Shown: piece after piece, positions 12,271 to 52,539 of the stretch
Layout: each line of letters opens with the position of its first letter
How positions within the stretch are numbered: the stretch's first letter is position 1
Assembly: GCF_963455295.1 (NCBI RefSeq)
Contig: NZ_OY734020.1
Coordinates: 3,286,001 to 3,350,000, forward strand
Direction: 5' to 3'
Origin: Candidatus Thiodiazotropha sp. CDECU1
GTDB lineage: Bacteria; Pseudomonadota; Gammaproteobacteria; Chromatiales; Chromatiaceae
Length of the DNA: 64,000 nucleotides
The notes under the pieces: generated by a model
Database searches by the model: none
What the model was told of the DNA's origin: nothing
What the model saw: only the letters and a program-made list of their open reading frames with translations
Position numbers and translations under genes: made by a program

Positions 12271-12273
12271 GAA

Positions 12274-33154: not shown

Positions 33155-33170
33155 TGGCATAAGGATTGCT
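33155..33170 (+). promoter_or_regulatory. Sigma54 promoter of the Fe-S/NrfD operon
   Basis: TGGCAT-N5-TTGCT, one base from consensus in the -24 box, followed by ATTTT. First gene starts 162 nt downstream. Confidence 0.75.
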
Positions 33171-33331: not shown

Positions 33332-33667
33332 ATGATTAAACGATGGCTCATTCAATTAGGGCAGTGGTTGTTTGTTGATTATAAAAAACAGCAAAAGCCC
33401 AATCTGAAGGCTTCAGATGAACCCAATCCCACCCGTAGACGACTCTTCAAGCAGGCAGCCATCGGTGCTGTGAGTGTCACCGGTACTGCAGGCTTGGCCA
33501 AGACTGTTGTCGATGGAGTTCCCACTCCCGAATTGAAACAGAAATACAGGCGAGATGCCCTGCAAGGTGAAGCGGAACTCAGAGAATGGGAATATGTGGT
33601 GATGACCGACCTGGAGAAGAAGGCCATGGTGCAGTCATTAATCAATAACTACGATCACAAAACCTGA
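33332..33667 (+). CDS. Small Tat-signal protein, first gene of the respiratory operon
   Basis: A 111-residue protein. A ~30-residue basic lead precedes a twin-arginine motif (PTRRRLFKQAAIGAVSVTGTAGLA), then about 55 polar residues ending in a short helix (MTDLEKKAMVQSLINNY). The length suits a small Tat-exported or Tat-anchored accessory protein rather than a cofactor enzyme; no Cys is present. Similar mini-proteins accompany formate dehydrogenase-type and other Mo/Fe-S operons. It is 57 nt from the Fe-S protein gene and is probably co-transcribed from the promoter at 33155. Family not recognised; role unknown. Confidence 0.7.
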   Translation: MIKRWLIQLGQWLFVDYKKQQKPNLKASDEPNPTRRRLFKQAAIGAVSVTGTAGLAKTVVDGVPTPELKQKYRRDALQGEAELREWEYVVMTDLEKKAMVQSLINNYDHKT

Positions 33668-33724
33668 ACAGCATGAGATTGTTCAAGCCTATTTGAAAAA
33701 AAGTCACTCGATCAGAGGACAGCC

Positions 33725-34753: not shown

Positions 34754-34767
34754 TTGGAGATCCCGTA

Positions 34768-36021
34768 ATGCGATTTCTTCAGTTCGTGTTCGATTACCTC
34801 AAGGCTGGCTTTAGCGGCGGTATCCTGTTCTGGGCCTGGATGCTGTTCCTGCTTTTTTTCATAATGCTCTGGGGCTACGGAGAGTATGTACAGATTGCCA
34901 ATGGCATGATTGTCACCAATCTCAACGACCAGGTCAGTTGGGGATTCTACCTGGCAAATTTTGTTTTCATGGTGGGTGTGGCGGCAGCAGCGGTGACAGT
35001 GGTTTTTCCCGCCTATGTCTATAAGCACAAAGAGCTGCACCGGATCGTGGTGCTGGGTGAGATGATCGCCATCGCTGCCGTAGTGATGTGTCTGCTGTTT
35101 GTGATTGCGCATATGGGAAGACCGGACAGGCTATGGCATATCCTGCCAGTCATCGGCATCTTCAACTGGCCCCACGCCATTTTGACCTGGGATGTGATTG
35201 TACTCAACGGCTATCTGCTGCTTAACATCATCGGCGGATACTACTACCTGTATAAAAAATACAGCGGCGGCGAAGTCAATAAGGCTTTTTATCTTCCGAT
35301 TGTCTATATCGCTATTGTCTGGGCACTGAGTATTCATACGGTTACCGCATTCCTGATCAATACCATGCCGGCACGTCCCATGTGGTTCCATTCCATGATG
35401 CCGATCAAGTTCATCACCACTGCTTTTGCCGCCGGTCCTTCACTGATCATCGTGGTGTTTCTGCTGGTGCGTCGGTTTACCCCCATGAAAATAGCCGATG
35501 AGGCCTTTCATCTGCTCTCCCAGATCGTTGTCTGGTGCCTGGGTATCGCCCTGTTTCTGACGATGTCGGAGATAGTGACCGAACTCTACCCCGCTACCGA
35601 GCACTCCCTGGGGTTGCAATATCTGATGTTCGGACACAATGGCCTTAACAGCCTGGTACCCTACTTTTGGACTGCACTCTCCCTGATGGTGGGATCCTTC
35701 ATACTGTTGTTGATTCCGAGGATCAGGAAGAACCTGAAGTTGCTACCGTTTATCTGCATTGCCGCATTCATCGGCATCTGGATCGAAAAAGGCATGGGCT
35801 TGATGCTGCCTGGTGTAATCCCCACCCCTGTTGGTGAGTTTGCAGAGTACATCCCCAGCCCTATCGAACTGATGGTGGTGGGTGGTATCTGGGCAATCGG
35901 TTTCTTCCTGCTTACCTTCATGTTGAAAGGTGCGGTTGCCGTACTGCTGGGAGATGTCCGATACCAAACCAAAACAAATAAGCAACCAATAGCAGAGCAG
36001 CAGGCCGAAGCGACTATCTGA
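34768..36021 (+). CDS. NrfD/PsrC family polytopic membrane subunit (DsrP-like)
   Basis: A 417-residue integral membrane protein with about ten helices. NrfD features: WGFYLANFVFMVGVAAAAV, GEMIAIAAVVMCLLFVIAHMGRPDRLWHI, NWPHAILTWDVIVLNGYL and IHTVTAFLI. These proteins exchange electrons between the quinone pool and a periplasmic Fe-S subunit; no heme ligands are needed. The size and the GRPDR motif are closer to DsrP/HmcC-type than to short PsrC. Immediately follows its Fe-S partner. Confidence 0.9.
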   Translation: MRFLQFVFDYLKAGFSGGILFWAWMLFLLFFIMLWGYGEYVQIANGMIVTNLNDQVSWGFYLANFVFMVGVAAAAVTVVFPAYVYKHKELHRIVVLGEMIAIAAVVMCLLFVIAHMGRPDRLWHILPVIGIFNWPHAILTWDVIVLNGYLLLNIIGGYYYLYKKYSGGEVNKAFYLPIVYIAIVWALSIHTVTAFLINTMPARPMWFHSMMPIKFITTAFAAGPSLIIVVFLLVRRFTPMKIADEAFHLLSQIVVWCLGIALFLTMSEIVTELYPATEHSLGLQYLMFGHNGLNSLVPYFWTALSLMVGSFILLLIPRIRKNLKLLPFICIAAFIGIWIEKGMGLMLPGVIPTPVGEFAEYIPSPIELMVVGGIWAIGFFLLTFMLKGAVAVLLGDVRYQTKTNKQPIAEQQAEATI

Positions 36022-36069
36022 GTGAATGAAGCTTGATTTGAACAGGCAATATCGATTTGGAGAAAAACC

Positions 36070-36882
36070 ATGACATGCTATCGAAATCATCAGTCACTCT
36101 TGGGTTTTTGCCTGCTGTTTTTTGTATCCACCAATCCGGTAATCGCCACAGAGACACAGGCCAAGCAGGAGTGTTTTGAGAGCCGGGATGGTATGTCACA
36201 GGTCAGGGTTCAGGAAATCGGCCCTGAACTGATGAATGTTAAATGTTCGTCCACTACCGGGGGCGTTCTCTGGTGGGGTGATCCATTCGAAGGCACTATT
36301 CCTATGGGTGATATGGAGGTGGAAGGGGACTACACACACGAAGAGGCGGTCGTAAAACCCCGTGAACCACAACTCGACAGAAACAAACTGCTGACAATAT
36401 GCAGCATGGCCTGTCATGACGGCAGTTATGTACCTATACCACATACCAAGACGCCTCGACCGCTGAAGATGCATCTGGATACGGTTCCCGATGCCATGAA
36501 CCTGAAACATGGCAAAGGGGGCATCTGGTGCCTGGATTGTCATCATCTGGTGGAGCGTACCAAACTGATTGACAATTTCGGTTACGCAATCAGTTTCAAC
36601 CAGCCCCAGAAGCTATGCGGCAAATGCCATGGCCAGGTCTATCGTGCCTGGCGGAATGGGATTCACGGCAAGCGAATCGGCATGTGGGACAAGGGGGGTA
36701 AAAAACGCTGGTGGGTCTGTACCGAATGCCACAACCCACACGATGTTGAACAAGACAACAGAAACTCAGGCTTTGCCCAGCTGCGGCCGGAACCGGCACC
36801 CAATCTGCCCAAGGGGATGACCAATGCGGACCATGAAAGGATGCACCATGGTCCAAAACAGGCTGAGGTAGATCATGAGTGA
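36070..36882 (+). CDS. Multiheme cytochrome c, three CXXCH and one CX3CH site
   Basis: A 270-residue periplasmic protein; signal peptide or anchor at the N-terminus (SLLGFCLLFFVSTNPVIATE). Heme sites: CSMACH at 111-116 with three residues between the cysteines, then CLDCH (154), CGKCH (183) and CTECH (217). Many His residues (HH after CLDCH, HDG, HGKR, NPH) could be distal ligands. In the Fe-S/NrfD operon it is placed like DsrJ, as the periplasmic exit of the quinol-linked module. CX3CH is not a normal maturation site, so this position is either an unusual heme or a different metal site. Confidence 0.85.
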   Translation: MTCYRNHQSLLGFCLLFFVSTNPVIATETQAKQECFESRDGMSQVRVQEIGPELMNVKCSSTTGGVLWWGDPFEGTIPMGDMEVEGDYTHEEAVVKPREPQLDRNKLLTICSMACHDGSYVPIPHTKTPRPLKMHLDTVPDAMNLKHGKGGIWCLDCHHLVERTKLIDNFGYAISFNQPQKLCGKCHGQVYRAWRNGIHGKRIGMWDKGGKKRWWVCTECHNPHDVEQDNRNSGFAQLRPEPAPNLPKGMTNADHERMHHGPKQAEVDHE

Positions 36883-36914
36883 ATCATAGGCAGCTAATTT
36901 TTGGGAATATCAGC

Positions 36915-37241
36915 ATGATAAGTCAAATCAGATTGATCAATCTAACACTATTTATCGCCATCACTATATTACCGGTTAGGGCGCAGGCCCTGGATGCGGC
37001 GACACTGTATTACGAGCGTACCTGTATTGCCTGTCATGGAGAGCAGGGCAAAGAGCCGATTATGGATGAGTATCCAAGGTTAGCCGGGCAAGCTGAGGCC
37101 TATCTATTGGCACAAATGAAGGATATTAAGAGCGGTTCACGGTCGAACGCACATTCTGTCGCCATGACAAATGTCATGCACCTGATCAGCGATGAAGAGA
37201 TTTCCGTGCTGGCAAAATGGCTTGCAACGCTACCTGAATGA
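36915..37241 (+). CDS. Class I cytochrome c (c4/c5-like)
   Basis: A 108-residue exported protein; ATG 36915 gives a clean signal (MISQIRLINLTLFIAITILPVRAQA). A GTG at 36879 overlapping the previous stop is the alternative. One heme site CIACH with GEQGKEPI, PRLAGQ..YL..QM.D...G.R, and a Met ligand in AHSVAMTNV: the c4/cytochrome c-553 pattern. Likely a soluble shuttle between the multiheme cytochrome and downstream acceptors. Very similar in layout to the protein at 38193. Confidence 0.9.
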   Translation: MISQIRLINLTLFIAITILPVRAQALDAATLYYERTCIACHGEQGKEPIMDEYPRLAGQAEAYLLAQMKDIKSGSRSNAHSVAMTNVMHLISDEEISVLAKWLATLPE

Positions 37242-38534: not shown

Positions 38535-39902
38535 TCAGCTTGCTTTGTAATTATTCTCATCTAGCGAGTAACGTTTAATCATACGATAGATACTGCGCTC
38601 ACTGATACCCATCACTTCGGCCACTTTACCCCTACGCCCGGAGTATTTCTTTAGCTGATAGGACAAGTAGTGCGCTTCCAGTTCCTCCATTGAAGGGTCG
38701 TGATCAAAGCTCATGGTCACTACACCCTCACTCTTGCCAAGCACCCGGCTAAATGAAAAATGCTCAGGTTTGATTGTCTGCCGGTCACCAGAGAGAATGA
38801 TCGCTCTTTCAATCACATTCTTTAACTCCCTAACGTTACCTGGCCAATCGTAGGATACCAGTGATCGAACCGCGGATGATGACAGGCTCTTGTTGACGCG
38901 TGTTGAGAAATTGTGATTTTTCACAAAATGTTCTGCCAACTCAGGTATATCGTCACGCCTGTCCCGCAATGACGGTATGGTGATGTTGAATGCATTGAGT
39001 CGGAAAAACAGATCGGAACGAAAGTTACCCTCAGATGACATGACTTCCAGATCACGATTTGTGGCTGCGACAATTCTGACATTTGCGGTCAGATCCTTGG
39101 TACTGCCCAGTCTTCGGTATTGACCCGTTTCAAGTACACGCAAAAGCTTGGCCTGTCCGCTACTGTTTATTTCACCGATTTCATCCAGAAACAGAGTGCC
39201 ACCCTCTGCCCCTTCGATCAGACCATTTTTCTGTTTGTCAGCACCTGTAAAAGCGCCTTTCTCATGCCCGAACAACTCGGATTCGAAAAGACTTTCTTGT
39301 AGTGTGCAGCAGTCGACGGCAACGTAGTTATGTTTCTTACGATGACTATGCGCATGAATGGCACGCGCCACCAACTCTTTACCAGAACCACTCTCACCCT
39401 GTATCAGTACCGTAATATCATTAGGCGCCACGGCACCGATCATCCGATTCAGTTCAATCATGACAGTACTGTTACCCACCAATGAGGAATTGCGCTGAAT
39501 GCTCTGCTCCAACTGTCTTTTGCAGAACATATGGTCTCTACGCAGAGCTGCATTATCGAGCGCCCTCTCGACAGTAATTGTCAGTGTATCCAGGCTGACA
39601 GGCTTTAGAATGTAATCCACCGCTCCCGCTTTTATAGCATTCACGGCATCGCGTACCGATCCAAAAGCGGTCAGAACGATCACTGGGTAGTTAACAGACA
39701 GATTTTCAATATACTCAAGACTGTTGGCATCAGGTAAGCGTGCATCAGTAAGAATCAATGCTGGCTCATACTTTTCCAGATAGTCCATTACGCTGTCCCA
39801 GCGACTCAGACCTTCCACCTCATAATCCAATTTTGAAAGGTGTTGTATGATGAGGGTTCTGAGCGTATCGTCGTCCTCTACAACAACTATTTTGGCTTTC
39901 AT
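38535..39902 (-). CDS. Sigma54-dependent response regulator of the respiratory cluster
   Basis: A 455-residue NtrC-family activator. Receiver with D53 (LILTDARLPD), AAA+ domain (GESGSGKE, GHEKGAFTGAD, TLFLDEIGEI, DWPGNVRELKN), and a C-terminal helix-turn-helix (GKVAEVMGISERSIYRMIKRY). GAFTGA is intact, so it can drive sigma54 promoters. Encoded with the heme-sensing kinase (4-nt overlap). The three -24/-12 promoters at 33155, 41895 and 43096 and their shared palindrome lie on both sides of it, making it their probable activator (inference). Confidence 0.9.
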   Translation of the reverse strand: MKAKIVVVEDDDTLRTLIIQHLSKLDYEVEGLSRWDSVMDYLEKYEPALILTDARLPDANSLEYIENLSVNYPVIVLTAFGSVRDAVNAIKAGAVDYILKPVSLDTLTITVERALDNAALRRDHMFCKRQLEQSIQRNSSLVGNSTVMIELNRMIGAVAPNDITVLIQGESGSGKELVARAIHAHSHRKKHNYVAVDCCTLQESLFESELFGHEKGAFTGADKQKNGLIEGAEGGTLFLDEIGEINSSGQAKLLRVLETGQYRRLGSTKDLTANVRIVAATNRDLEVMSSEGNFRSDLFFRLNAFNITIPSLRDRRDDIPELAEHFVKNHNFSTRVNKSLSSSAVRSLVSYDWPGNVRELKNVIERAIILSGDRQTIKPEHFSFSRVLGKSEGVVTMSFDHDPSMEELEAHYLSYQLKKYSGRRGKVAEVMGISERSIYRMIKRYSLDENNYKAS

Positions 39903-41755
39903 CTATTCCTCCCCAGTTCATTCCGGGCATTCGGCAGTGCTACGGTGAATACACTCCCAACAGATACCTCACTGGCCACATTCATGGTCCCACCATACTT
40001 TTCAACGATCGCCATACAGATCGAGAGACCTAAACCTGTCCCTGGGACGTCGTCAGCACGACGAGTGAAAAACGGATCAAAGATATAGGGGAGATCCTTG
40101 GGTCGAATTCCCGCACCGGTGTCAGAGAAAACAACCTGGATCATATCCCCCTCAACAGAGCAGGAAACGGTCAAGATGCCACCATCTGGCATGGCGTGAA
40201 ATGCATTCTGCGCCAAATTGAGGGCTACCATCCTGATTTCACTGTCTGAAGCCAGGACCCGCAGCATCTCATCCTCATAATTCTCTTCAAGCGTAATATT
40301 CGACTGATCAGCCTGCCATCTTATCAGTGTCAGCGTATCATGGAGTGCAGTCTTGACATTGACCAGTTCAAGGTTTTCCTGGGGCAGCGCACCGAGTTTC
40401 AACAATTTGCCGGTGATCTCGATGCATGAACTGATCTGGTCATCTATCAGTTCGAAATTTTTCTTGATGTAATCAGTGTAGCTTTTGTTGGCAACAATCT
40501 CATTCTTCGTGGCGTCCATCGCCAACTTCAGCGAGGCCAGAGGATTGTGAATCTCATGCGCCACGCCTGTGGCCAGACGCCCCAATTCAGAGAGTTTCTG
40601 TTCCTGTGAATATTTAACCGCTTTTGCAAGATCGCGAATCGATTCAACAATCAGGGTCTTTTCCTCTCCGCCTTGTTTGATTGTCATGGGTGCTGCAAAA
40701 ATCTCGACCTCGAAGGTAGTGCGATCGGACCGGTGGTGTTGATGCATCACTTTGATCGGTTTTTTGATATGCGATATTTCGTGAACCGGACAGTTAATCA
40801 GGGTCGGTGGACAGGGCTTGCAGGTATTGTGCGTGATCCCATAACAGGTGGCACCCACATCCGACATGCTCTCCAGTCTGTGTTGCTCGCAATAGGCTTT
40901 GTTGACCAGTATGACCCTGAAATTTTCATCAATGATCCTGATACCGTCCGGTATGGCGTCAACCAGTGCCTGTAGGAATCCCCTCTGCTCCTCCAACTCC
41001 AGCAACTTCTCCCGTAATCGCTCTGTCATCAGATCGAAGGTATCCCCAAGCCGGGATAGTTCATCAGATCCCTGCATCGCAACTCGGGTCTGTAAATTTC
41101 CACCCGTCAAGTCCCGGCTTGCATTAGTTAGCTGTTTGACAGGCCTGAGAATATTGGTGTGTATGAACCACCAGCCTCCTGCCAGATTGAGAATCACGAT
41201 CAGGGAGCCAGCACCCATCAGCATCAGGGTGGTATTGCCTACTTTGCTCCTGAGGGGTGTAGCATCGTAGTCGACATAGAGAATGCCGTTGATCGGATTC
41301 TGTTCAGCCGTCCCGTGACACTCTTTACAGGCTGGCTTGTTGTGTACTGGATTGATACTGCGCAGAAGCTCCTGCTGTGCTTCACCCTGCACGAAATGGG
41401 TTGTTTGTACCTTGGCCTGGTAGGGATTTTCCAGCTGCCTGCCAAAATCCCCTTCTCGGCTACTGAAACGGATCTCACCAGCCGGATTTGTGATAAAAAC
41501 CGCAATTATACCCTCTTGCTCCCCCAGCTTGTTGACCATCTCGCTCAACCCGGGAAGATCCCGCTTGAGCATGGCGTTTTCCAAGGAAACCTGCAGCAGA
41601 TTGTTGACCTGGTTGGCGGCATCCGCCCTTGCCCCCTCCAGCTCTGACTGGTAGAGCGGAATGTAGAGCAACAGAAACACCAGGGAGCTTATGGCAAGAC
41701 CTGATGTGGTGCCCAAGATGAATTTTCTATTCAGGCTGTTGGTTATCCACTTCAT
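39899..41755 (-). CDS. Membrane histidine kinase with periplasmic heme c motif and Cys-rich PAS
   Basis: About 618 residues from ATG 41755 (a TTG at 41767 is the alternative). TM1 ~18-38 in the longer frame, a ~140-residue periplasmic domain ending in CKECHG (147-151) before YVDYDATPL and TM2 (~180-202), HAMP (ILRPVKQLTNASRDLTGGNL...), PAS holding a Cys cluster (CYGITHNTCKPCPPTLINCPVH), HisKA (ATGVAHEIHNPLASLKLAMD), HATPase (NLAQNAFHAM; DTGAGI; GTGLGLSI). Two redox-capable sites, one on each side of the membrane, suggest it monitors electron flow or an oxidant. Cognate regulator overlaps its end by 4 nt. Confidence 0.9.
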   Translation of the reverse strand: MKWITNSLNRKFILGTTSGLAISSLVFLLLYIPLYQSELEGARADAANQVNNLLQVSLENAMLKRDLPGLSEMVNKLGEQEGIIAVFITNPAGEIRFSSREGDFGRQLENPYQAKVQTTHFVQGEAQQELLRSINPVHNKPACKECHGTAEQNPINGILYVDYDATPLRSKVGNTTLMLMGAGSLIVILNLAGGWWFIHTNILRPVKQLTNASRDLTGGNLQTRVAMQGSDELSRLGDTFDLMTERLREKLLELEEQRGFLQALVDAIPDGIRIIDENFRVILVNKAYCEQHRLESMSDVGATCYGITHNTCKPCPPTLINCPVHEISHIKKPIKVMHQHHRSDRTTFEVEIFAAPMTIKQGGEEKTLIVESIRDLAKAVKYSQEQKLSELGRLATGVAHEIHNPLASLKLAMDATKNEIVANKSYTDYIKKNFELIDDQISSCIEITGKLLKLGALPQENLELVNVKTALHDTLTLIRWQADQSNITLEENYEDEMLRVLASDSEIRMVALNLAQNAFHAMPDGGILTVSCSVEGDMIQVVFSDTGAGIRPKDLPYIFDPFFTRRADDVPGTGLGLSICMAIVEKYGGTMNVASEVSVGSVFTVALPNARNELGRNR

Positions 41756-41823
41756 CACTTGTACCAACTAAGTTATTCAGGATCTGCTGATTTGAGTTTA
41801 ATAGTAAAAAAAACTCTTTTTTC

Positions 41824-41910: not shown

Positions 41911-41957
41911 CATAAATTGGGAATCTGATCGCCATACCATCCGGAGGAGTGCAGCAA

Positions 41958-42734
41958 ATGAGAAAAAACAGCAAGATTTCCGATTTCCACATCACTGCTC
42001 AGTTGTTGTGGTGCTTTTTATGGTTACCAATCGCGGGCTTAGCGGAACCGATCAATACACTTGGGGAATCACTACGTGATTCCCTGCTCCAGCAGGGATG
42101 GCAGGAATACACCGCTGCGGATGGCAGCGTTATCTATCGGCAACCTAAAAAAGAGGCTGCTACTGACATTCAGTCAGTAGTTACTGAAGCATCGGATATG
42201 CGTAAGTTTGGGGATGCATTGCGTGGTCGAGGATGGCAGGTCAAGTGGGATGCGGATAACACATTAATTTTGATTCCTGAAACTGCCAAGGCAATATCCG
42301 AAACCACCCAAAAACCACCACGGCCATCCACCAGCGATCCACTCGAGACACCAGATGAACTGCCAAGAGACCTTACCGGTTTTGATTACTGGCACATCGA
42401 GCGGGATCAACAGGGTGCATTACTGTTCCGTCCGGTGGATTTAACTACCCAAAAGCAGCAGTCGGCAGACGCTGGCTATGACCGTCAAATGGATTGCCGA
42501 ATTGATCATTTTCAACTCACCGCCGGCTCACTGCCGGTGGATCAATGGTCCGAAGCGCAGGATATTGCAAAACAGTGGCTCAGCAACTCTGGCACAGAGG
42601 GGCTTCAGGTAGGCCGCATACGTAAGATAAATCGTATCTATCTGATTAGTATTGTTGAAGAATCGGCACCCTATTCGTTACGGCACCAACTGGCTGTGCG
42701 TGTTTCTGACGCAGCGGTGGTCCTGATTGAGTAG
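41958..42734 (+). CDS. Secreted protein of unknown function under sigma54 control
   Basis: A 258-residue exported protein; ATG 41958 has GGAGGAG 8 nt upstream (the GTG at 41949 is within that site). Signal peptide ends near GLAEP. Two similar N-terminal modules pair the phrase LRDSLLQQGWQEYTAADGSVIYRQP with LRGRGWQVKWDADNTLILIPE, a possible duplicated beta-alpha domain. The C-terminal half has GFDYWHIERDQQGALLFRP and a Cys plus a final beta strand (VRVSDAAVVLIE). No known family. First gene after its promoter; next gene has its own promoter. Confidence 0.7.
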   Translation: MRKNSKISDFHITAQLLWCFLWLPIAGLAEPINTLGESLRDSLLQQGWQEYTAADGSVIYRQPKKEAATDIQSVVTEASDMRKFGDALRGRGWQVKWDADNTLILIPETAKAISETTQKPPRPSTSDPLETPDELPRDLTGFDYWHIERDQQGALLFRPVDLTTQKQQSADAGYDRQMDCRIDHFQLTAGSLPVDQWSEAQDIAKQWLSNSGTEGLQVGRIRKINRIYLISIVEESAPYSLRHQLAVRVSDAAVVLIE

Positions 42735-43095: not shown

Positions 43096-43111
43096 TGGCA
43101 TAACGCTTGCG
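43096..43111 (+). promoter_or_regulatory. Sigma54 promoter ahead of the Met-rich protein and molybdoenzyme genes
   Basis: TGGCAT-N5-TTGCG; GG and GC correctly spaced. First start codon 57 nt downstream. Confidence 0.75.
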
Positions 43112-43167: not shown

Positions 43168-43452
43168 ATGCGGTTGTTTGCTACTGCCAGCACCGGTTTG
43201 TTCGTTTTACTTCCGTTACAGCTCATGGCTGGCTATCCCGTAGCTGGTGTAGAGCCTTCCAAACGGCCCGTGAATGCACCGGTCGTTAAACAATCAACGC
43301 GTGATAAGGCGTGGTATCAATCAGCCTTGACTGGCGTCCGACAGCCCTATCCCAGGAGTCTCTATTTCCTAGACAACCAGGGTAACTGGTACACACCTTT
43401 CACCCGCCCGGGTATGAGAGGTCCTTACGATATTCGTCAATGGCATCAGTAG
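43168..43452 (+). CDS. Small secreted protein with aromatic GxW motif
   Basis: A 94-residue exported protein with GGAGG upstream and a signal peptide ending near LMAGYPVAG. The mature part is basic, then ends with YFLDNQGNWYTPFTRPGMRGPYD. The phrase GNWYTPFTRPGM resembles the two kinds of aromatic spacer in the next gene's product (GQIFFYPASGM and GQWVWLPSGM), so the two proteins may share a binding partner. No Cys. Probably first gene of the sigma54 transcription unit. Family unknown. Confidence 0.7.
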   Translation: MRLFATASTGLFVLLPLQLMAGYPVAGVEPSKRPVNAPVVKQSTRDKAWYQSALTGVRQPYPRSLYFLDNQGNWYTPFTRPGMRGPYDIRQWHQ

Positions 43453-43556: not shown

Positions 43557-44558
43557 ATGAAAATTATTCGAATGCCAAATCTGAAAGGAGTGATCAAAGC
43601 GATGGGGATGGTCGTGGCGCTTGCTGTTGCCCCACTCGCTAGCGCAGGCATGAGTGGCATGTCAGGCATGGACGGTATGTCCGGCATGGGTGGCATGTCC
43701 GGTATGGGTGGCATGGGCGGTATGTCCGGTATGGGTGGCATGGGCGGCATGTCCGGTATGGGTGGCATGGGCGGCATGTCCGGTATGAGCGGCATGGGCG
43801 GCATGTCCGGTATGAGTGGCATGGGCGGCATGAGCGGCATGAGCGGCATGTCCGGATACTTCAAGATAACCCCCCAGGGACAGATCTTTTTCTATCCAGC
43901 TAGTGGCATGTCCGGTATGAGTGGCATGTCCGGCATGGGCGGCATGTCCGGTATGAGCGGCATGGGCGGTATGTCCGGTATGGGCGGTATGTCCGGTATG
44001 GGCGGTATGTCCGGTATGGGCGGCATGTCCGGTATGGGCGGCATGGGCGGCATGTCCGGTATGAGCGGCATGGGCGGTATGTCCGGTATGAGCGGCATGG
44101 GCGGCCAATGGGTATGGTTACCTTCAGGCATGTCCGGTATGAGCGGCATGGGCGGTATGTCCGGTATGGGCGGTATGTCCGGCATGGGCGGCATGTCCGG
44201 TATGGGAGGCATGGGCGGCATGTCCGGTATGAGCGGCATGGGCGGCATGTCCGGTATGGGTGGCATGGGCGGCATGTCCGGTATGAGCGGCATGGGCGGC
44301 ATGTCCGGTATGAGTGGCATGGGCGGCATGAGCGGCATGTCCGGATACTTCAAGATAACCCCCCAGGGACAGATCTTCTTCTATCCAGCTAGCGGCATGT
44401 CAGGAATGAGTGGTATGTCAGGCATGGGCGGTATGTCCGGGATGGGCGGTATGTCAGGCATGGGCGGCATGAGTGGCATGTCAGGCATGGGCGGCATGAG
44501 CGGCATGTCAGGCATGGGCGGCATGGGCGGCATGTCAGGAATGAGTGGTTGGCGTTAA
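43557..44558 (+). CDS. Exported Met-X-Gly tripeptide-repeat protein
   Basis: A 333-residue protein starting at ATG 43557 (the GTG at 43542 overlaps the ribosome site). Signal peptide 1-30 ends in LASA. The rest is almost only the tripeptide Met-(Ser or Gly)-Gly: 86 triplets in blocks of 23, 22, 24 and 17, one of them MDG. The blocks are separated by three spacers: YFKITPQGQIFFYPASG at 101-117 and again, identical, at 264-280, and QWVWLPSG at 184-191; it closes with WR. No Cys or His outside the signal. Exported Met-rich sequence suggests copper or other soft-metal contact, or a structural fibre; function is unknown. Lies between cytochrome-type genes and under the same promoter as them. Confidence 0.85.
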   Translation: MKIIRMPNLKGVIKAMGMVVALAVAPLASAGMSGMSGMDGMSGMGGMSGMGGMGGMSGMGGMGGMSGMGGMGGMSGMSGMGGMSGMSGMGGMSGMSGMSGYFKITPQGQIFFYPASGMSGMSGMSGMGGMSGMSGMGGMSGMGGMSGMGGMSGMGGMSGMGGMGGMSGMSGMGGMSGMSGMGGQWVWLPSGMSGMSGMGGMSGMGGMSGMGGMSGMGGMGGMSGMSGMGGMSGMGGMGGMSGMSGMGGMSGMSGMGGMSGMSGYFKITPQGQIFFYPASGMSGMSGMSGMGGMSGMGGMSGMGGMSGMSGMGGMSGMSGMGGMGGMSGMSGWR

Positions 44559-44678: not shown

Positions 44679-45470
44679 ATGATTTTATGTATCAGGACCT
44701 TTATTCCGCTGTTATTGTCGATGCTGCTATCGACCGATCTGGTTTTAGCCCGTGACCTTGGTCCTGAGGATTATGAACGATCACGTTGGCACCCTATCCA
44801 TTTCAAACCTGATATAGAAAATGCAAAAGATGAACAGTGTGTCAGCTGCCATCAAGAGATTCTGGACAGGAAGGTGCTTGCTCAGGCACCGGCTGGCAAC
44901 ACCTCGACTGAGGCACTGGCTTGGTATCAAACTCTACCGACCTATGAAGGTGAACAGGAGACATTTCATCGCCGCCATCTGGTGACACCGCTGGCAACGG
45001 AGCTGATGGACTTAAAATGTAATACCTGCCATCAGGGCAACGATTTAAGAGAAGAGGCGGTGAACCCGCCAGACCATAGCAACCGTGATATGACACTCCG
45101 CAAGTCGGTCAATCCGGACATTTGCCTGATGTGTCACGGTGCCAATGCCTACGAGCTGATGGGCCTTCCCGCTCCTTGGATGGAGTCACGCAAGAACTAT
45201 CAAAACAACTGTCTTCTTTGTCACTCCTATATCCGCACTGAGCGGCACCAGGTCAACTATTTGAAAGCCGAGGCCATCGAGGCTGCGGGTAAAGCGAATT
45301 CGGACATATGCTATGGCTGTCATGGCGGTCGTCAGTGGTACCGCATTGCTTACCCCTACCCCCGACATCCCTGGAAAGGCATGGCGAGTGTCACTCCAGA
45401 TTGGGCCAAAGATAGACCAACCGAATCGGAACCCAGGTTCCGCAAAGATATCCAGCAGGCTGCGAACTAG
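44679..45470 (+). CDS. Pentaheme cytochrome c
   Basis: A 263-residue periplasmic protein with a signal peptide ending near VLARD. Five heme sites: CVSCH (54), CNTCH (114), CLMCH (149), CLLCH (178) and CYGCH (211), with further His residues (RHL, DHS, ERH, RHPWKG) able to serve as distal ligands. Spacing of the last three is typical of NrfB/DmsE-like cytochromes. The molybdoenzyme gene begins 25 nt downstream, so it probably feeds electrons to or takes them from that enzyme. A 6-bp GAGCGC/GCGCTC hairpin lies between it and the Met-rich gene, which could reduce but not necessarily stop read-through. Confidence 0.9.
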   Translation: MILCIRTFIPLLLSMLLSTDLVLARDLGPEDYERSRWHPIHFKPDIENAKDEQCVSCHQEILDRKVLAQAPAGNTSTEALAWYQTLPTYEGEQETFHRRHLVTPLATELMDLKCNTCHQGNDLREEAVNPPDHSNRDMTLRKSVNPDICLMCHGANAYELMGLPAPWMESRKNYQNNCLLCHSYIRTERHQVNYLKAEAIEAAGKANSDICYGCHGGRQWYRIAYPYPRHPWKGMASVTPDWAKDRPTESEPRFRKDIQQAAN

Positions 45471-45495: not shown

Positions 45496-48060
45496 ATGAG
45501 TATAGAAAAACTGACACAGAGTCTGAATGAGCGATTGAACCTTTCACGGCGTTCATTCTTGAAATCCGCAGCGGTGGGTAGCGCATCTTTGGCTGCCGGA
45601 GGTTTGGTGGAACTGAAGACCGCCAAGGAGGCCAAGGCATTTGCCTATGAACCTTATCCGACAGACGATCAACTCGAAACAGTGGTGACCAGTTGCGCCC
45701 ATAACTGTGGCTCGCGGCATATGCTGGTCGCTCACAAGTGGAAAGATGTAATTGTGCGTCTTTCCACAGATGATGGTCGCTACCAGCGGGATGGCCACTT
45801 CGGCAAGGATAGTAACGAAGAACCACAACTGCGGGCCTGCCTGCGTGGACGCTCCTATAGGCAACGTCTCTATTCCGCTGAACGCCTGCTCTACCCGATG
45901 ATGCGGGTTGGCAAACGGGGTGAGGGTAAATTCAAGCGCATCTCATGGGATGAAGCCCTGAGTTATGTGGCCAACAAGATGGTCGAGATCAAAGACACAT
46001 ATGGTCCGACTGCCCTGGTGGATCAGAGTTATGCCGGAGCCTCATATGGAGTGCTGCATAAATCCGATCAGATCGAGGGCTTGCTGGGCCGCTTCCTGGG
46101 GATGTTTGGCTGTCGCACAAACTCCTGGTCGGTTCCCTCTTACCAGGGAACCACCTTCAGTTCGCGGATGACCTTCGGCACCATTGAAGATGGCAATGAA
46201 GATGATACTTTCGCCCATTCGAAACTAATGATCATGTGGGGATGGAATCCCGCCTACACCTTCCACGGCGGCAACACCTTCATGTATATGCGCATGGCTA
46301 AACAGCGCGGTTGCAAGTTTGTGTTGATCGATCCGCAATACACCGATTCTGCAGCCGCTTACGACGCCTGGTGGATTCCCATCCGACCCAATACCGACGC
46401 GGCAATGATGGCGGGCATGGCCCACTATATCTTCACCAACAACCTGCATGATCAGGACTTTATCAATAAGTTCTGCCAAGGCATGGACGCCGGAACCATG
46501 CCTGAATGGGCAAAGGATAAGGAGAACTTCAAGGACTATATTCTGGGTAAATACGACAATGAGCCTAAAACCCCGGAATGGGCATCGAAAATCTGCGGTG
46601 TGTCGGCCAAAGACATCATCAAACTGGCGGATATGTATGCCCGCACCAAGCCTGCCGCACTGAAGGCATCCTGGGCGCCGGGCAGAAACGCCTATGGCGA
46701 GCAGTACAACCGCATGGCCGCAGCCCTGCAGGCGATGACAGGTAATATCGGCATACTGGGTGGGTGCGCTGAAGGTGTCGGCAAGGCCTGGCATGCAGAA
46801 GCGGTGGCCTACCCTTATGATCAATACGCCAATATCTGGTTTCAGTCCATCAAATCAGATCGATGGGCTCACTGCGTCCTCAACTATCCCAATGTAAAAA
46901 GGGAAGAGATCGGGCTTTGGCCCCGAGAGGACAAAACGGACGGACAGATCCCCAATATCAAGGGCATCTTTTGGCAGGGGTCCGATTGGTTCAATCAGCT
47001 TACCAACATCAATAAAGAGATTGAGGCAATCAATAAGCTGGAACTGGTGGTCTGCATGGACTCGACCATCACCCCATCCGGACTGTATGCCGATATCCTG
47101 CTGCCCATTGCCACGCACTTTGAGCGGCATGATGTGGCGCTGCCCTGGTATAAAGGCCACTACTATATACATCGCCCCAAGGTCATAGAACCGATGGGAG
47201 AGTCGAAGACCGATTTCCAGGTCTTCACGGAACTTGCCTATAGAATCGGTGGCGATGTGTTCGGCCAGGCCTTCAATCCAAAGGCAAACAGGGACTATTT
47301 CCATATCAACGATAATGTGGATGAAGCCTATCTCAGGGAGTGGTGGGAGCAGAAAGTCATCGCTCACCAGCATGTGGACATGTCCTGGGATGAGTTCAAA
47401 CAGCGAGGCGTCTATAAATTCAAACTCGACCAACCGCACGTCGCCTTCAGGGAGCAGATAGAGAATGGGAAAGCGTTCCAGACTCCCTCCGGCAAGATCG
47501 AAATTCTTGCCTCACAACTGGCACAGATCACCGACTGGAAAAAAACCATGTATGGCTATGAGATCCCTTATATACCTAAATGGATCGAGCCCTGGGAGTC
47601 GTTGAACAGCCCAAAGACCAGTGAATTTCCATTTCATCTGATCTCGCCCCATCCACGCTGGAGAACCCACTCCATATTCAACAACTGCAGCTGGTTACGT
47701 GAGACCTATGAACAGGAAGTGACCGTGAACGCCTCGGACGCTAAAAAACTCGGCATCAAAACCGGCGATACGGTTGAGATCTGGAACAAGCGTGGCCGGG
47801 TTGTGGTACCGACCTATGTTACAGAACGCTGTATGCCGGGAGTGGCGGTACTGCACGAGGGGGTGTGGATTGATCTGGATGAAAACGGCGTTGACCGGGC
47901 GGGAAATCCGGACATGTTAACCCTGGATGAGCCCAGCCCTGCCGGATCATTCGCCTACAACACCGTACTGTGCAATATCAAGAAAACAGATCTGGAGCAT
48001 CGGCCCGGCTGGGACCAGCTGTCCACTTCACGAGCACATGTCTTTAGGCGTGATCTTTAA
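45496..48060 (+). CDS. Molybdopterin oxidoreductase, DMSO-reductase family (DmsA-like)
   Basis: An 854-residue Tat-exported catalytic subunit (SRRSFLK at 17-23). The N-terminal [4Fe-4S] site reads C67-x3-C71-x3-H75 ... C115 (CAHNCGSRHM; RACLRGRS): the third ligand, Cys in DmsA, is His here. QLRACLRGRS, the Mo-bis-MGD motif WNPAYTFHGG, APGRNAYGEQYNR and TPSGKIEI fit DmsA/YnfE-type reductases; Ser212 (TNSWS) is at the Mo-ligand position by alignment to GDYS. Substrate cannot be fixed: DMSO, S-oxides, sulfur or other oxyanions are possible. The Fe-S subunit and TorD chaperone follow; the membrane anchor is missing and may be the NrfD protein at 34768 or the pentaheme cytochrome. Confidence 0.88.
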   Translation: MSIEKLTQSLNERLNLSRRSFLKSAAVGSASLAAGGLVELKTAKEAKAFAYEPYPTDDQLETVVTSCAHNCGSRHMLVAHKWKDVIVRLSTDDGRYQRDGHFGKDSNEEPQLRACLRGRSYRQRLYSAERLLYPMMRVGKRGEGKFKRISWDEALSYVANKMVEIKDTYGPTALVDQSYAGASYGVLHKSDQIEGLLGRFLGMFGCRTNSWSVPSYQGTTFSSRMTFGTIEDGNEDDTFAHSKLMIMWGWNPAYTFHGGNTFMYMRMAKQRGCKFVLIDPQYTDSAAAYDAWWIPIRPNTDAAMMAGMAHYIFTNNLHDQDFINKFCQGMDAGTMPEWAKDKENFKDYILGKYDNEPKTPEWASKICGVSAKDIIKLADMYARTKPAALKASWAPGRNAYGEQYNRMAAALQAMTGNIGILGGCAEGVGKAWHAEAVAYPYDQYANIWFQSIKSDRWAHCVLNYPNVKREEIGLWPREDKTDGQIPNIKGIFWQGSDWFNQLTNINKEIEAINKLELVVCMDSTITPSGLYADILLPIATHFERHDVALPWYKGHYYIHRPKVIEPMGESKTDFQVFTELAYRIGGDVFGQAFNPKANRDYFHINDNVDEAYLREWWEQKVIAHQHVDMSWDEFKQRGVYKFKLDQPHVAFREQIENGKAFQTPSGKIEILASQLAQITDWKKTMYGYEIPYIPKWIEPWESLNSPKTSEFPFHLISPHPRWRTHSIFNNCSWLRETYEQEVTVNASDAKKLGIKTGDTVEIWNKRGRVVVPTYVTERCMPGVAVLHEGVWIDLDENGVDRAGNPDMLTLDEPSPAGSFAYNTVLCNIKKTDLEHRPGWDQLSTSRAHVFRRDL

Positions 48061-48077: not shown

Positions 48078-48743
48078 ATGACAAGCAAAAAAGACAGCAC
48101 CAGGATAAAAGCCGCAGTAAAGCGTCGTAAACGCGAAACATATACACCGGTAGTGCCCGACAAACAGTTGGGGTTCGTACATAATAATGTTGATTGCATC
48201 GGCTGCCGGGCATGTGAAATCGCCTGTAAAGACAAAAACGGACTTGCCGCAGGGCCCAGATTCAGACGGGTTCAATATATCGAGGGAGGTCACTACCCTG
48301 ACGTCTATGCCTACAAGGTCAACATGTCCTGCAACCATTGTGAATCACCCGCCTGCCTGCCCACCTGCCCCACTGGTGCAATATTCAAACGTAAGGCAGA
48401 TGGCATAGTCGATATCGATTCCACGCTGTGTATCGGCTGCCGGCGTTGCGAAGCCGCCTGTCCTTTTGGTGCGCCACAGTTTGATCCAGGCGACAACATT
48501 GTCAAAAAGTGCAATATGTGTGTAGACGAGATCGAGGCGGGGCGCAAGCCCTATTGTGTCATGGCCTGCATGATGCGGGTACTGGACATCGGTTCCATCG
48601 ATGAGATCTGGAGAGGCAGTTTACAGACGGCAGCCGTAGGACCTAATGATGATGTGTCAAAGCAAGTCAAGAACATGGCTAACATAGAGTTGACAAAGCC
48701 CTCCATCGGTTTTGTGGCGCACAGTAAAGGAAAGGTCAAGTAA
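48078..48743 (+). CDS. DmsB-like four-cluster ferredoxin subunit
   Basis: A 221-residue Fe-S protein without signal peptide. Four [4Fe-4S] motifs: CIGCRACEIACK, CNHCESPACLPTCP, CIGCRRCEAACP, CNMCVDEIEAGRKPYCVMAC. Adjacent to and probably exported with the Tat-borne molybdoenzyme, as DmsB is with DmsA. GGAGG precedes the ATG, and the chaperone gene overlaps its stop (1 nt). It would pass electrons between the Mo subunit and a cytochrome or membrane partner. Confidence 0.92.
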   Translation: MTSKKDSTRIKAAVKRRKRETYTPVVPDKQLGFVHNNVDCIGCRACEIACKDKNGLAAGPRFRRVQYIEGGHYPDVYAYKVNMSCNHCESPACLPTCPTGAIFKRKADGIVDIDSTLCIGCRRCEAACPFGAPQFDPGDNIVKKCNMCVDEIEAGRKPYCVMACMMRVLDIGSIDEIWRGSLQTAAVGPNDDVSKQVKNMANIELTKPSIGFVAHSKGKVK

Positions 48744-49516
48744 TGAATCTGTCAGATGAACAGAACGACAACTCAAACGACGAGCAGATCACAAGCTTTT
48801 TTCTTGCTGTTGCCGATGACCTGCAGATGTTCGTCCAGCTGCATGCCAAGGAGCCGGATAGCGAACTCCTCGAGGCGTTGGTCAGCTGCGGATTTCCCAA
48901 CTCTCTGGGCCTTAAACTGGTAAGCGAAGAGGGCAATATTGCAACTCAGTTTATGGCCCGAGTGGTTGAGACGTTGCCGGAAACCTTCGATGATGAGTTT
49001 CTCGATATGCTGGCGGCCGACTTTGCAGACATCTATCTGAATCATAGTCTGCAGGCATCACCACTGGAGTCGGTGTGGATTGATGAAGAGAAGCTGACAT
49101 GTCAGGTAAGTATGTTTCAGGTGAGAGCCTGGTATGAAAATTATGGCCTGATGGCGGAAAACTGGCGTATCCGGCCAGACGATGATCTGGTGCTGCAACT
49201 TCAGTTCATCTCCCATCTGTTTTCCATTGCCGACCCCCTGAAACAGCTGGAAGCTATAGCACGTTTCATGGATGAACACCTGTTGCGTTGGCTCGATCAA
49301 TTTGCAACAAGAGTGGCACATCGTTCTGCCACACCCTATTTCTCAGGTATTGCTTTATTGACAGCGGCATATTGCGAGGAGCTGAGGGATCTTATAGCCA
49401 AGACTACCAACCAACCCAGGCCGTCTCAGGAAGAGATAGCAGAGCGGATGAAGCCAAAGCCGGTCAGTCAGGAGGTACCTCTGAGTTATATGCCCGGCAT
49501 CGGCCCGGCAGTATAG
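48743..49516 (+). CDS. TorD/DmsD family molybdoenzyme chaperone
   Basis: A 257-residue helical cytoplasmic protein. TorD features: DFADIYLNHSLQASPLESVWID (the family E.P.ESV segment), VRAWYENYGL, DDDLVLQLQFISHLF, FMDEHLLRWLDQFA (family DEHL). It binds the Tat signal of the molybdoenzyme until the cofactor is inserted. The C-terminal ~35 residues (EEIAERMKPKPVSQEVPLSYMPG) are an unusual tail. Start overlaps the Fe-S subunit gene. Last gene of the unit. Confidence 0.88.
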   Translation: MNLSDEQNDNSNDEQITSFFLAVADDLQMFVQLHAKEPDSELLEALVSCGFPNSLGLKLVSEEGNIATQFMARVVETLPETFDDEFLDMLAADFADIYLNHSLQASPLESVWIDEEKLTCQVSMFQVRAWYENYGLMAENWRIRPDDDLVLQLQFISHLFSIADPLKQLEAIARFMDEHLLRWLDQFATRVAHRSATPYFSGIALLTAAYCEELRDLIAKTTNQPRPSQEEIAERMKPKPVSQEVPLSYMPGIGPAV

Positions 49517-49753: not shown

Positions 49754-50824
49754 ATGGCTCATCTAAAGGAACTGATCAATCGCATACGACATGAAGAGAG
49801 ACTGCCGACGGTAATCTCGGATCGTTGCGTGCATACCCTGATAGAGGTCGCAAGCTGCAAATCTTGTGTAGATGTCTGTCCCAGGCAGGCCTGGTTCCTG
49901 GATGATGAAGCATTGCAGTTCGATACAACACTTTGTGACGGCTGTGGATTGTGCGTCCCCGTCTGTCCGCAGAGAGCGATCACGATCCAGTATGACATAC
50001 TCATAGGTGACCTGGGACAGGAAAAGGTCGCACTCTGTGCATGTGAGCAGTCAGGGATAAGCGATAACAAAAGCACTCTACCTTGCATCCACCTCATTGG
50101 GCTGAGCGATATACTCAAACTCTACCGGCAAGGATATTATACATGGGTTACCACAACCGGCAGCTGTGCCGAGTGCCAACGTGGCCACTGCACCACCCTC
50201 TTTGAGCGTATTGAACAGATCAATCGCGCACTCATTGAGGAACAAAACCCGGTCATTGTATATCACCAAATAGAGGGCAAACAGTGGCAACGCATCCAAT
50301 CGCGGCTGGATGAAAAAACGCCATCGCCCAGTCTCAGCCGGCGAGCTTTCTTGACAGAGATGCTCGACAGCGGTATTGACTCGACATCCGCACTCTTCAA
50401 ACTGAATGAGCAGGAAGCTGACGTTCACCCACCACCCGGAGAGCTGTTGCCCAACCAGGGCGAGTCATCGATCTGGCCCTATGTACCGAAAATCGACAGT
50501 AACAATTGCGATGGCTGCGACGCCTGTGTCAACACCTGCCCTCACAATGCAATCGAACTCACAGCTGGGGATGATAAGGCATCGTACAGAATCAAGCCCC
50601 AGGCTTGTACAGGATGCGCTATTTGCCAAGATATATGTGACAGGCAAGCCATCACTATCATGGAGTGGTCACAGATGGCGCAGCAGATACTGAAACTACA
50701 GACATTTACCTGTTCAAGGTGTGGCAACCCGGCGCATACACCTGCGGCCATCACAACTCAATCACTTTGCAGAATTTGTTCTCAAGTCAATCACCATAAA
50801 AACCTTTTTCAAGTCATGGATTGA
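49754..50824 (+). CDS. Multi-cluster ferredoxin-type protein with internal SRRAFL motif
   Basis: A 356-residue cytoplasmic-looking protein. An N-terminal Cys group (CKSCVDVCP then CDGCGLCVPVCP), a middle domain with CACEQSG and CAECQRGHC, a linker with SRRAFLTEML, then two more [4Fe-4S] motifs (CDGCDACVNTCPHNA; CTGCAICQDICDRQA) and a zinc-ribbon-like tail (CSRCGNP...CRICSQ). SRRAFL resembles a Tat signal but is internal, as if a ferredoxin had been fused in front of a second one. It lies 238 nt from the chaperone gene and probably forms its own unit. Not in a family I can name; likely an electron-transfer or assembly role beside the molybdoenzyme. Confidence 0.8.
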   Translation: MAHLKELINRIRHEERLPTVISDRCVHTLIEVASCKSCVDVCPRQAWFLDDEALQFDTTLCDGCGLCVPVCPQRAITIQYDILIGDLGQEKVALCACEQSGISDNKSTLPCIHLIGLSDILKLYRQGYYTWVTTTGSCAECQRGHCTTLFERIEQINRALIEEQNPVIVYHQIEGKQWQRIQSRLDEKTPSPSLSRRAFLTEMLDSGIDSTSALFKLNEQEADVHPPPGELLPNQGESSIWPYVPKIDSNNCDGCDACVNTCPHNAIELTAGDDKASYRIKPQACTGCAICQDICDRQAITIMEWSQMAQQILKLQTFTCSRCGNPAHTPAAITTQSLCRICSQVNHHKNLFQVMD

Positions 50825-50946: not shown

Positions 50947-52539
50947 ATGACTATGAGTTGTAAAATATCTGAATCTATTTTTCGTGATTTACGGCTTTTC
51001 CTGCTGTTGCTGTTGCCGCTCTTAACCAACAGTTGCTCATCGGAAACATCGCAACAGGAACAGCAGCAGAAGGCAAACGACAGGACTATTGATCGACACA
51101 GCGAATTTGCCCCGGGAATGCCATGGCTGAACGTTGAACGCCCTCTGACATTCGATGATATATTGGGTAAGGTTGTAATTCTCGACTTCTGGACTTATGG
51201 CTGCATCAACTGCATCCATGTGCTAGCGGATCTGAAAAAGCTCGAACAAAAGTATGGCCATCAGTTGTTGGTCATCGGTGTCCATACCCCTAAGTTCGAT
51301 AACGAAAAAAACCTTGAAACACTGAGGAAAATAGTAACCCGGTATGACATTGAACATCCGGTCGTCAACGATATCGACGGATTACTCGCGACCGTTTACG
51401 GCATGCGTGCCTGGCCTACACGGGTACTTATCGACCCCAAGGGAGAGGTACTCGGTAAAGTGGTAGGGGAAGGACGATATGATCAGATAGACCAAAAAAT
51501 TGCCGAGCTACTCGAACAGCACAAATCTGTTCTCAACCATTCACCCATACCACTACGACTTGAACGGGAAGAGAGTGAAACCAAGCTGTTGTCGGCACCA
51601 GGAAAGATTGCGCTATCACCTGACCATATAGTCATTAGCGATTCACTCCATAATCGAGTCATTGTCACCGACCACAGTGGCAAAATTAAGCATATCATCG
51701 GCTCCGGTGCCCTTGGCAGCCAGGATGGTAACTTTGACAAAGCAAGCTTCAATTCACCTCAAGGCCTGGTCATTGACGACAATAGCATCTATATAGCGGA
51801 CACTGGCAACCACCTGCTCAGACTGATTGACCTGAACAAAAAAACCGTCGACACCATCGCAGGCAATGGCTCACTGGAGCGTAAACGCAGTGGTCAATAT
51901 CATGCTACATCAATCGGCATGGCCTCACCTTGGGCACTCGCACTTTTGGATGACAGATTGTTCATCGCGATGGCTGGTAGCCACCAGATCTGGGTCTACA
52001 ACATCAACAGCAAACAACTTGGCAACTACGCCGGTTCGGGACGTGAAGGAATCGTCGATGGTGAAGCGGAGCAGGCCACTTTCAGCCAACCGAGCGGATT
52101 AAGTATTCATGGTAATTGGTTATATATTGCAGACTCAGAGGCCTCGTCAGTTCGGCGGATCAATCTGCAGGATGAAATGGTTGAAACACTGGTAGGCACC
52201 GGATTATTCGATTTTGGCGATAGGGATGGCGACCTGGAGAGTGCAAAGTTACAGCATGTACTCGGCATATCGGTTGATGACACAGCATCCATCTACCTGG
52301 CCGACACCTATAACCACAAAATCAAAAAGCTTGATCTTGAGTCATCACTATTGAAATCGATAATAGGAGACGGCAAACCAGGTTTCTTGAGTACTGTGGA
52401 TGGTCAACTCCAGCTAAACGAACCGGGGGGATTGGCTTTACATGAGGGTAGACTCTACATCGCTGACACCAACAACGATCGTATTGTTGTTTTTGATATA
52501 GTTCACGGCCGTTCATCAATCCTGGATATTAAGCTCTAG
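50947..52539 (+). CDS. Thioredoxin-domain protein fused to NHL-repeat beta-propeller
   Basis: A 530-residue protein. N-terminal hydrophobic segment (LRLFLLLLLPLLTNSCSSE) is a signal or lipoprotein anchor with a weak lipobox at the Cys. A thioredoxin/TlpA-like domain at ~50-190 has the active site WTYGCINCIH. The rest is NHL repeats (IVISDSLHNRVIV; GLVIDDNSIYIADTGNHLLRLIDL; GLSIHGNWLYIADSEASSVRRI; LADTYNHKIKKLDL; ADTNNDRIVVFDI). Same layout as eukaryotic NHLRC2 without its C-terminal domain. Periplasmic; possibly disulfide or heme-Cys reduction for the cytochromes encoded upstream (inference). Confidence 0.88.
   Translation: MTMSCKISESIFRDLRLFLLLLLPLLTNSCSSETSQQEQQQKANDRTIDRHSEFAPGMPWLNVERPLTFDDILGKVVILDFWTYGCINCIHVLADLKKLEQKYGHQLLVIGVHTPKFDNEKNLETLRKIVTRYDIEHPVVNDIDGLLATVYGMRAWPTRVLIDPKGEVLGKVVGEGRYDQIDQKIAELLEQHKSVLNHSPIPLRLEREESETKLLSAPGKIALSPDHIVISDSLHNRVIVTDHSGKIKHIIGSGALGSQDGNFDKASFNSPQGLVIDDNSIYIADTGNHLLRLIDLNKKTVDTIAGNGSLERKRSGQYHATSIGMASPWALALLDDRLFIAMAGSHQIWVYNINSKQLGNYAGSGREGIVDGEAEQATFSQPSGLSIHGNWLYIADSEASSVRRINLQDEMVETLVGTGLFDFGDRDGDLESAKLQHVLGISVDDTASIYLADTYNHKIKKLDLESSLLKSIIGDGKPGFLSTVDGQLQLNEPGGLALHEGRLYIADTNNDRIVVFDIVHGRSSILDIKL

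Follow-up and report, generated by a model that had tools for sequence, protein, structure and literature searches.

The locus considered here, in a window of 64,000 nucleotides (the whole stretch of DNA that was analysed), raises the question of what a long chain of methionine-glycine triplets may be doing among genes for cytochromes and a molybdoenzyme. Its product, here called the MxG protein, can be accounted for residue by residue: 31 residues precede the first triplet, 258 residues form 86 M-x-G triplets in runs of exactly 23, 22, 24 and 17, and the spacers and a final WR complete the 333. There are three spacers, YFKITPQGQIFFYPASG (a PxG beta-hairpin, present twice) and QWVWLPSG (present once). 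This agrees with the first-pass annotation, made from the sequence alone, whose description of the triplets as Met-(Ser/Gly)-Gly holds for 85 of them (51 MSG and 34 MGG) and fails for one, which is MDG. Met accounts for 86 of the 303 residues after the start region, and the longest run, of 24 triplets, compares with at most five in 2000 composition shuffles. The start is signal-peptide-like by eye and AlphaFold predicts a helix at residues 9-29, in line with the export that had been assumed; a GAGG ribosome-binding site (by eye) lies 5' of the ATG.

At the DNA level the gene contains a tandem repeat with periods of 9 to 27, along which synonymous codons vary (Ser as TCC, AGC, AGT and TCA; Gly as GGC, GGT, GGA and GGG) but the encoded residues do not, a sign that selection acts on the protein. 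This synonymous variation and the recurrence of the frame with its spacers among relatives support the translation of the frame. The other reading frames across the repeat are likewise open, and no signal peptide was seen in them by eye. In one relative (L039, genome G004) the MxG frame is split, and some matches contain internal stops (e.g. G025 and G291). A chance or frame artefact was rejected on the basis of the shuffles, the conservation of Met and the conserved sigma54-like site described below.

A polyglycine-II-like helix of three residues per turn, with all Met side chains in one row, had been envisaged for the triplets. AlphaFold2, run on the MxG protein with ten family sequences, returned a mean pLDDT of 42.2, with 57-73 in the hairpins and 31-41 in the M-x-G tracts; the tract values lend no support to such a ladder and leave the fibre that was also suggested unrefuted.

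No Pfam or NCBIfam family was found for the MxG protein, for which these databases gave only collagen-type matches, all below cut-off. Collagen-like proteins (PF01391, Scl/Lcl) were considered and rejected, with 17.8 bits against 27.2 for PF01391 and scores far below the NCBIfam cut-offs; the weak matches are explained by Gly at every third position. Searches of the openly licensed literature with repeat strings and phrases retrieved no description of an MxG-type repeat, and those on Met-rich proteins, symbionts, sulfur globules and molybdoenzymes nothing relevant to it, in agreement with the first-pass impression of a design without a described family. The GroEL tail, made of GGM repeats, is short and sits on a folded cytoplasmic chaperonin, whereas the MxG repeat makes up nearly the whole of a protein with a signal-peptide-like start. 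The C-terminal tails of GroEL are likewise reported to be Gly- and Met-rich (PMC11978752).

In the window's genus, 19 of the 20 other genomes gave a match to the MxG protein, as did 31 of 56 genomes of a mixed sample of relatives (own genome included). In the larger samples they were present in 66 of 146 genomes of the family at E <= 1e-3 (50 at 1e-6), in 22 of 369 of the class at 1e-8 and in 13 of 398 of the phylum at 1e-12. At least one locus among the matches listed from named genomes (L068) belongs to an endosymbiont of Lamellibrachia anaximandri. Residues were counted in 90 distinct ORFs with at least 12 triplets each, using only triplets with M-x-G on both sides: the first position was Met in 4344 of 4376 triplets (23 Gln, 1 Val, no Leu and no Ile), and the third was Gly in 4370. 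What is kept at the first position is Met itself, as opposed to hydrophobic residues in general. The spacers change while the M-x-G repeats are kept: among 95 distinct ORFs, overlapping patterns were assigned as PxG hairpin (63), WVW/YWVP (27) and W-x-C-x-x-W (7), and 25 ORFs, some with variant hairpins, were caught by none of these simple patterns. Aromatic spacers and ends vary from genus to genus, and the number of repeats varies as well. By sequence comparison, the MxG proteins are a real family.

Further architectures occur among the repeat proteins. Several distant ones (L155, L064, L134 and L167) share a C-terminal aromatic-basic tail of the WWxFWK/WWxIWK type, which may serve in targeting or docking. 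L145:6574-8133 carries a 97-triplet tract fused to a domain like the C-terminal part (by eye) of the 41949 protein (Table 1), L156:5187-5837 unites M-x-G-type repeats and a cytochrome c domain in a single protein, and L190:7560-7916 encodes an EF-hand-like protein (by eye) with M-K-G repeats at its end.

Table 1. Positions of the features of the MxG locus within the window
Feature	Position	Strand	Remarks
Second sigma54-like site, before the FeS-NrfD-cytochrome genes	33155..33169	+	
Small Tat-type protein, FeS protein, NrfD-type membrane protein, multiheme cytochrome, cytochrome c	33332..37241	+	
Response regulator with sigma54-interaction domain	38535..39902	-	PF00158, 223 bits
Histidine kinase	39899..41767	-	
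Protein with three predicted hairpins and C-terminal alpha/beta domain (41949 protein)	41949..42734	+	export by eye
Sigma54 -24/-12-like site TGGCATAACGCTTGC	43096..43110	+	begins 72 bp before the 94-aa gene
94-aa conserved protein, first gene past the sigma54-like site	43168..43452	+	export by eye
MxG repeat protein gene	43557..44558	+	333 aa, ATG start
c-type cytochrome with 5 CXXCH motifs (pentaheme)	44679..45470	+	
DMSO-reductase-family molybdoenzyme	45496..48060	+	Tat-type start, DmsA/YnfE-like
DmsB-like 4Fe-4S subunit	48078..48743	+	TIGR02951, below cut-off
Molybdoenzyme chaperone, Nitrate_red_del family	48743..49516	+	PF02613, 64.1 bits
Multi-4Fe-4S ferredoxin-type protein	49754..50824	+	
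Protein with thioredoxin-like domain and NHL repeats	50947..52539	+	PF13905, PF01436; export by eye

The genes around the MxG gene are listed in Table 1. The usual order in relatives is kinase and regulator (divergent), the 41949 gene, the 94-aa gene, MxG, pentaheme cytochrome, molybdoenzyme, FeS subunit, chaperone (presumably of the NarJ/TorD type) and ferredoxin. In all four genomes of other classes the MxG gene immediately precedes those for the cytochrome and the molybdoenzyme, and in three of them (L218, L219 and L221) the order from the 94-aa gene to the FeS gene is retained; the kinase and regulator of L218 and L219 are located downstream, L219 has no ferredoxin match, and in L220, where the contig ends in MxG, there is neither a chaperone nor a ferredoxin match. 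Finally, L148 (G431, a genome of the class without enzyme match) carries kinase, regulator, 94-aa gene and MxG at a contig end. The first-pass placement of the gene in a cytochrome and molybdoenzyme operon is supported, and so is a redox setting. The family searches leave one conserved component of this sigma54-linked operon apparently without a described family.

Some of the neighbours are likewise without annotation. The 94-aa protein has no match in Pfam (E 0.1) or NCBIfam (E 0.01), and its alignment (24 sequences, including the window's) contains 21 invariant columns. The 41949 protein, for which ATG 41958 is an alternative start, has no match in Pfam or NCBIfam; its AlphaFold model (mean pLDDT 59.0) found no fold match at E <= 0.001, and its predicted hairpins look like those of MxG by eye. 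The thioredoxin-NHL gene lies about 6.4 kb downstream of MxG. The 33332..37241 genes, of which the small Tat-type protein (by eye) has no Pfam match, probably form a quinol-side electron module, and genes similar to this set come after the MxG gene in L130. A CKECH motif in the N-terminal part of the histidine kinase suggests that its sensing is heme-based.

A sigma54 promoter had been postulated for the operon. Within the window alone, one-mismatch sigma54-like sites occur at chance level (6 against 5.46 expected). Relatives were scored for TGGYRY-N5-TTGC within 400 bp upstream of the match to the 94-aa gene, in loci with at least 250 bp upstream, and 36 of 48 loci had the site, where shuffling predicts 0.09; the background over all retrieved loci was about 0.026 per 500 bp, and two of the three out-of-class loci with a 94-aa gene carry it too. 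This conservation supports a sigma54-like promoter at 43096-43110, and the nearby response regulator contains a sigma54-interaction domain. The second site was also found in L030, the one relative inspected for it.

Co-occurrence of MxG and the enzyme was assessed in the three genome samples, all of which contain G000 and two of which contain G010, and each count includes the own genome. The molybdoenzyme search was positive in 42 of 146 family, 16 of 369 class and 5 of 398 phylum genomes, 60 of them distinct. Among the 42 family genomes with the enzyme, the number with an MxG match fell from 41 at E <= 1e-3 to 40 at 1e-6 and to 39 at 1e-8, and all enzyme genomes of the class (16/16) and phylum (5/5) samples had one. 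The Fisher p values (1.8e-23 for the class and 5.8e-24 for the family at 1e-6) overstate this co-occurrence, since related genomes are not independent. Exceptions exist both ways. MxG occurs without the enzyme in 10 of the 104 enzyme-less family genomes (1e-6), in 6 of 353 in the class and in 8 of the 13 phylum genomes with a match, where several of the matches, at 15-37% identity, are possibly unrelated Gly-rich proteins. The clearest loss is that of G170, in which enzyme, cytochrome and 94-aa gene are present and MxG has no match, while the match of G106 is weak, with two stops.

Local linkage was evaluated in enzyme-cytochrome pairs with at least 600 bp upstream, requiring MxG within 1.5 kb of the cytochrome. 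MxG was directly upstream in 45 of 60 pairs, a set that is biased towards MxG because part of the loci were retrieved by MxG matches, and that holds at least one duplicate (L068 and L123 are apparently the same contig). Among pairs with enzymes at least 78% identical, the count was 41 of 49. The 15 pairs without MxG comprise eight enzymes at or above 78% identity, one at 77% and six second-copy enzymes (L176, L177, L178, L179, L188 and L189). L164 shows an apparent short MxG remnant, in L167 the MxG ORF is located beyond the regulator, L173, L170, L163, L168 and L175 have matches on other contigs (G096, G061, G056, G138 and G070, respectively), L162 (G106) has the weak match only and L161 (G170) none. 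A further 14 pairs have less than 600 bp upstream, with MxG in nine, and of the five without it L181 and L185 carry short Met-Gly ORFs at the contig end; three enzyme genes have no adjacent cytochrome. The search for repeat proteins beside DMSO-reductase-family operons, as recommended by the first-pass annotation, placed MxG directly upstream in most of the pairs; clusters kept without the repeat protein, which it had named as evidence against its reading, exist as a minority.

The molybdoenzyme and its FeS subunit resemble DmsABC/DorA, matching the DmsA and DmsB models best, with both scores below cut-off: 632.7 bits for DmsA/YnfE (TIGR02166, cut-off 777.7) and 188.7 bits for DmsB (TIGR02951, cut-off 214.1). 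The best PDB matches of the catalytic subunit are DMSO and TMAO reductases. Unlike DmsABC/DorA, the MxG operon has a pentaheme cytochrome upstream, no membrane anchor among the Pfam-scanned genes downstream of the molybdoenzyme, and an FeS motif C-x3-C-x3-H in which His replaces the third Cys (76/76 covering rows, duplicates included). WSVPSY is present in 77 of 77 rows, and its Ser aligns gap-free with a stretch of DMSO reductase 1eu1, at a position that we take to be the Mo-ligand Ser. At the SYGW position the enzyme carries [SA]YAG, and SYGW is reported to be necessary for sulfoxide reduction by DorA-like enzymes (PMC7402097). Three other proteins of the own genome match the molybdoenzyme at E <= 1e-15, with 25-31% identity.

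Additional MxG genes are found outside the main operon. The own genome harbours a second one (L005:7148-7675, 175 aa, spacer MYGTYKVTPQGVHLYPAG). In the window's genus, all eight loci with a second copy of this B type carry a sigma54-like site before it, reading TGGTGY rather than TGGCAY; the MxG genes of L128 and L130 also have such a site, and 8 of the 18 genes checked outside the main operon do not. In six of the eight B-type loci an MsrA gene is convergent (tail to tail) with MxG at a distance of 173-692 bp, and none of these six MsrA genes has a sigma54-like site of its own. The own genome has three MsrA genes; the product of the one beside MxG scores 189.8 bits with TIGR00401 (cut-off 108.1) and has a lipoprotein-type start (by eye). 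No MsrA gene lies beside L049 or L057, and 0 of 40 stretches from other genera gave an MsrA match, MsrA flanking MxG only in the window's genus. In L128 and L130 a thioredoxin-NHL gene like that at 50947 adjoins MxG, and L049 has a gene for a Tat-type AhpC/redoxin protein nearby. Also near this B-type gene, L049:2008-2307 encodes a small protein rich in Met and Lys, whose start is signal-like and whose sequence is unlike MxG. A third repeat gene of the own genome (L006:3726-4742) consists of a Gly/Tyr/Pro-rich half followed by MQGMSGMxG repeats and a TYRISPSGEILLFP hairpin; its product passes PF01391 (34.4 bits), the only one of the three own-genome repeat proteins scanned to do so.

The repeat design, the conserved operon with its sigma54-like site, the co-occurrence and the MsrA neighbour can all be read from the sequences. 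Starting from these, we infer export, Met oxidation with its enzymatic reversal, an electron route, docking and a biological purpose: with a probability of about 0.5, the MxG protein would act in the periplasm as a Met/Met-sulfoxide redox buffer. Periplasmic oxidants would convert the side chains of its 86 Met to Met sulfoxide, and S-oxide reductases would then restore them, namely the adjacent DmsA/DmsB-like molybdoenzyme for the window copy and the neighbouring MsrA for the second copy. Electrons may leave quinol by way of NrfD/FeS and reach the molybdoenzyme via the multiheme cytochromes, and the hairpin spacers might dock the chain to partner proteins. The triplet chain would be a simple Met-redox polymer. 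The retention of Met and the co-occurrence of MxG with the enzyme speak for such a buffer. Kinship with S/N-oxide reductases, MsrA, the thioredoxin and redoxin neighbours and the cytochrome c fusion point to sulfoxide reduction and electron transfer, and the periplasmic DMSO reductase DorA is reported to reduce protein-bound Met sulfoxide in vitro (PMC7402097). Counting against a redox buffer are the score of the enzyme below the DmsA cut-off, its lack of SYGW and the MxG-enzyme exceptions in both directions, as well as a report on Haemophilus that assigns free S/N-oxides to DmsABC and MtsZ, and proteins to MsrAB, as substrates (PMC11024254).

The closest parallel by description is MrpX/YedY1 of Azospira suillum, in which an exported Met-rich polypeptide is tied genetically to a periplasmic Met-sulfoxide reductase. 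A methionine-cycling mechanism in the periplasm has been described for mrpX together with yedYZ (PMC4623255), YedY being a molybdoenzyme (PMC4228395), and related perchlorate islands are reported to contain exported homologues of MsrA/MsrB (PMC5748585, PMC4623255). The reductase there is yedYZ, whereas the MxG neighbour matches DMSO-reductase families and comes with a pentaheme cytochrome; control there is reported to be by SigF/NrsF, in contrast to the sigma54-like site and NtrC-type regulator of the MxG locus. The best reading is that the MxG system may work like the MrpX/YedY1 methionine cycle, assembled from different parts.

Other roles have to be weighed against the redox buffer. A structural or condensate scaffold, in which a disordered, flexible and hydrophobic tether or matrix holds cytochrome and molybdoenzyme and Met serves for packing rather than redox chemistry, would suit the low-confidence tracts beside better predicted hairpins, the variation of aromatic spacers, ends and repeat number, and the similar-looking hairpins of the 41949 protein; we regard it as rather unlikely, as packing fits neither a nearly invariant Met, replaced once by Val and never by Leu or Ile, nor the MsrA and thioredoxin-type neighbours of other copies. 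A variant that keeps the redox chemistry and makes the protein an electron acceptor, its Met being oxidised under oxidants and the sulfoxides respired by the DmsA-like operon without oxygen, seems unlikely; if true, the cell would hold a rechargeable "methionine battery" in its periplasm, which would explain very high DMSO-reductase-like expression in a lucinid symbiont, provided that the gene is this one.

The presumed lifestyle of the host as a sulfur oxidiser brings in a sulfur-globule envelope or sulfur-binding protein. The globule proteins SgpA-D of A. vinosum are reported to be, like MxG, exported and somewhat repetitive, and SgpA-C extremely hydrophobic (PMC10386293), a likeness by description; in the third gene, L006:3726-4742, the Gly/Tyr/Pro-rich half is followed by M-x-G repeats and by a hairpin resembling that of MxG. 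The gene linkage observed is nevertheless to a molybdoenzyme with S/N-oxide-reductase relatives, searches of the openly licensed literature on sulfur globules gave no description of such a repeat protein, and this role is distinctly improbable. Met residues in M-x-x-M spacing could bind Cu(I), and this spacing is continuous in MxG; binding or delivery of soft metals, Cu(I) or Ag(I), one of the roles proposed in the first-pass annotation, gained no support and is very unlikely for a window protein that has neither Cys nor His, and no copper gene was recognised by eye among the ORFs of 26-64 kb. A low-complexity repeat expansion without selected function, to which the tandem periods of 9 to 27, the variable length and the split frame in L039 would conform, is scarcely credible given synonymous change with fixed residues, the presence of MxG with the operon in other classes and a conserved promoter-like site.

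Highly expressed DMSO-reductase-like genes have been reported in lucinid symbionts. During upwelling, two Ca. Thiodiazotropha clades had dmsB and dmsD among their 100 most abundant transcripts (PMC12172469), and another dmsAB locus is described near soxY and dsrAB (PMC11237559). We infer that the highly expressed dms genes may be those of the MxG operon, in which case a sulfoxide carried on a protein would be a substrate that lends itself to direct testing.

Elsewhere in the window, a 123-bp unit is perfectly duplicated in tandem at 14219-14466, and perfect tandem repeats of 28 and 42 bp, with the common stretch AATAAATAGGACATCCATCCATAATT, are located at 11605-11660 and 12229-12312.
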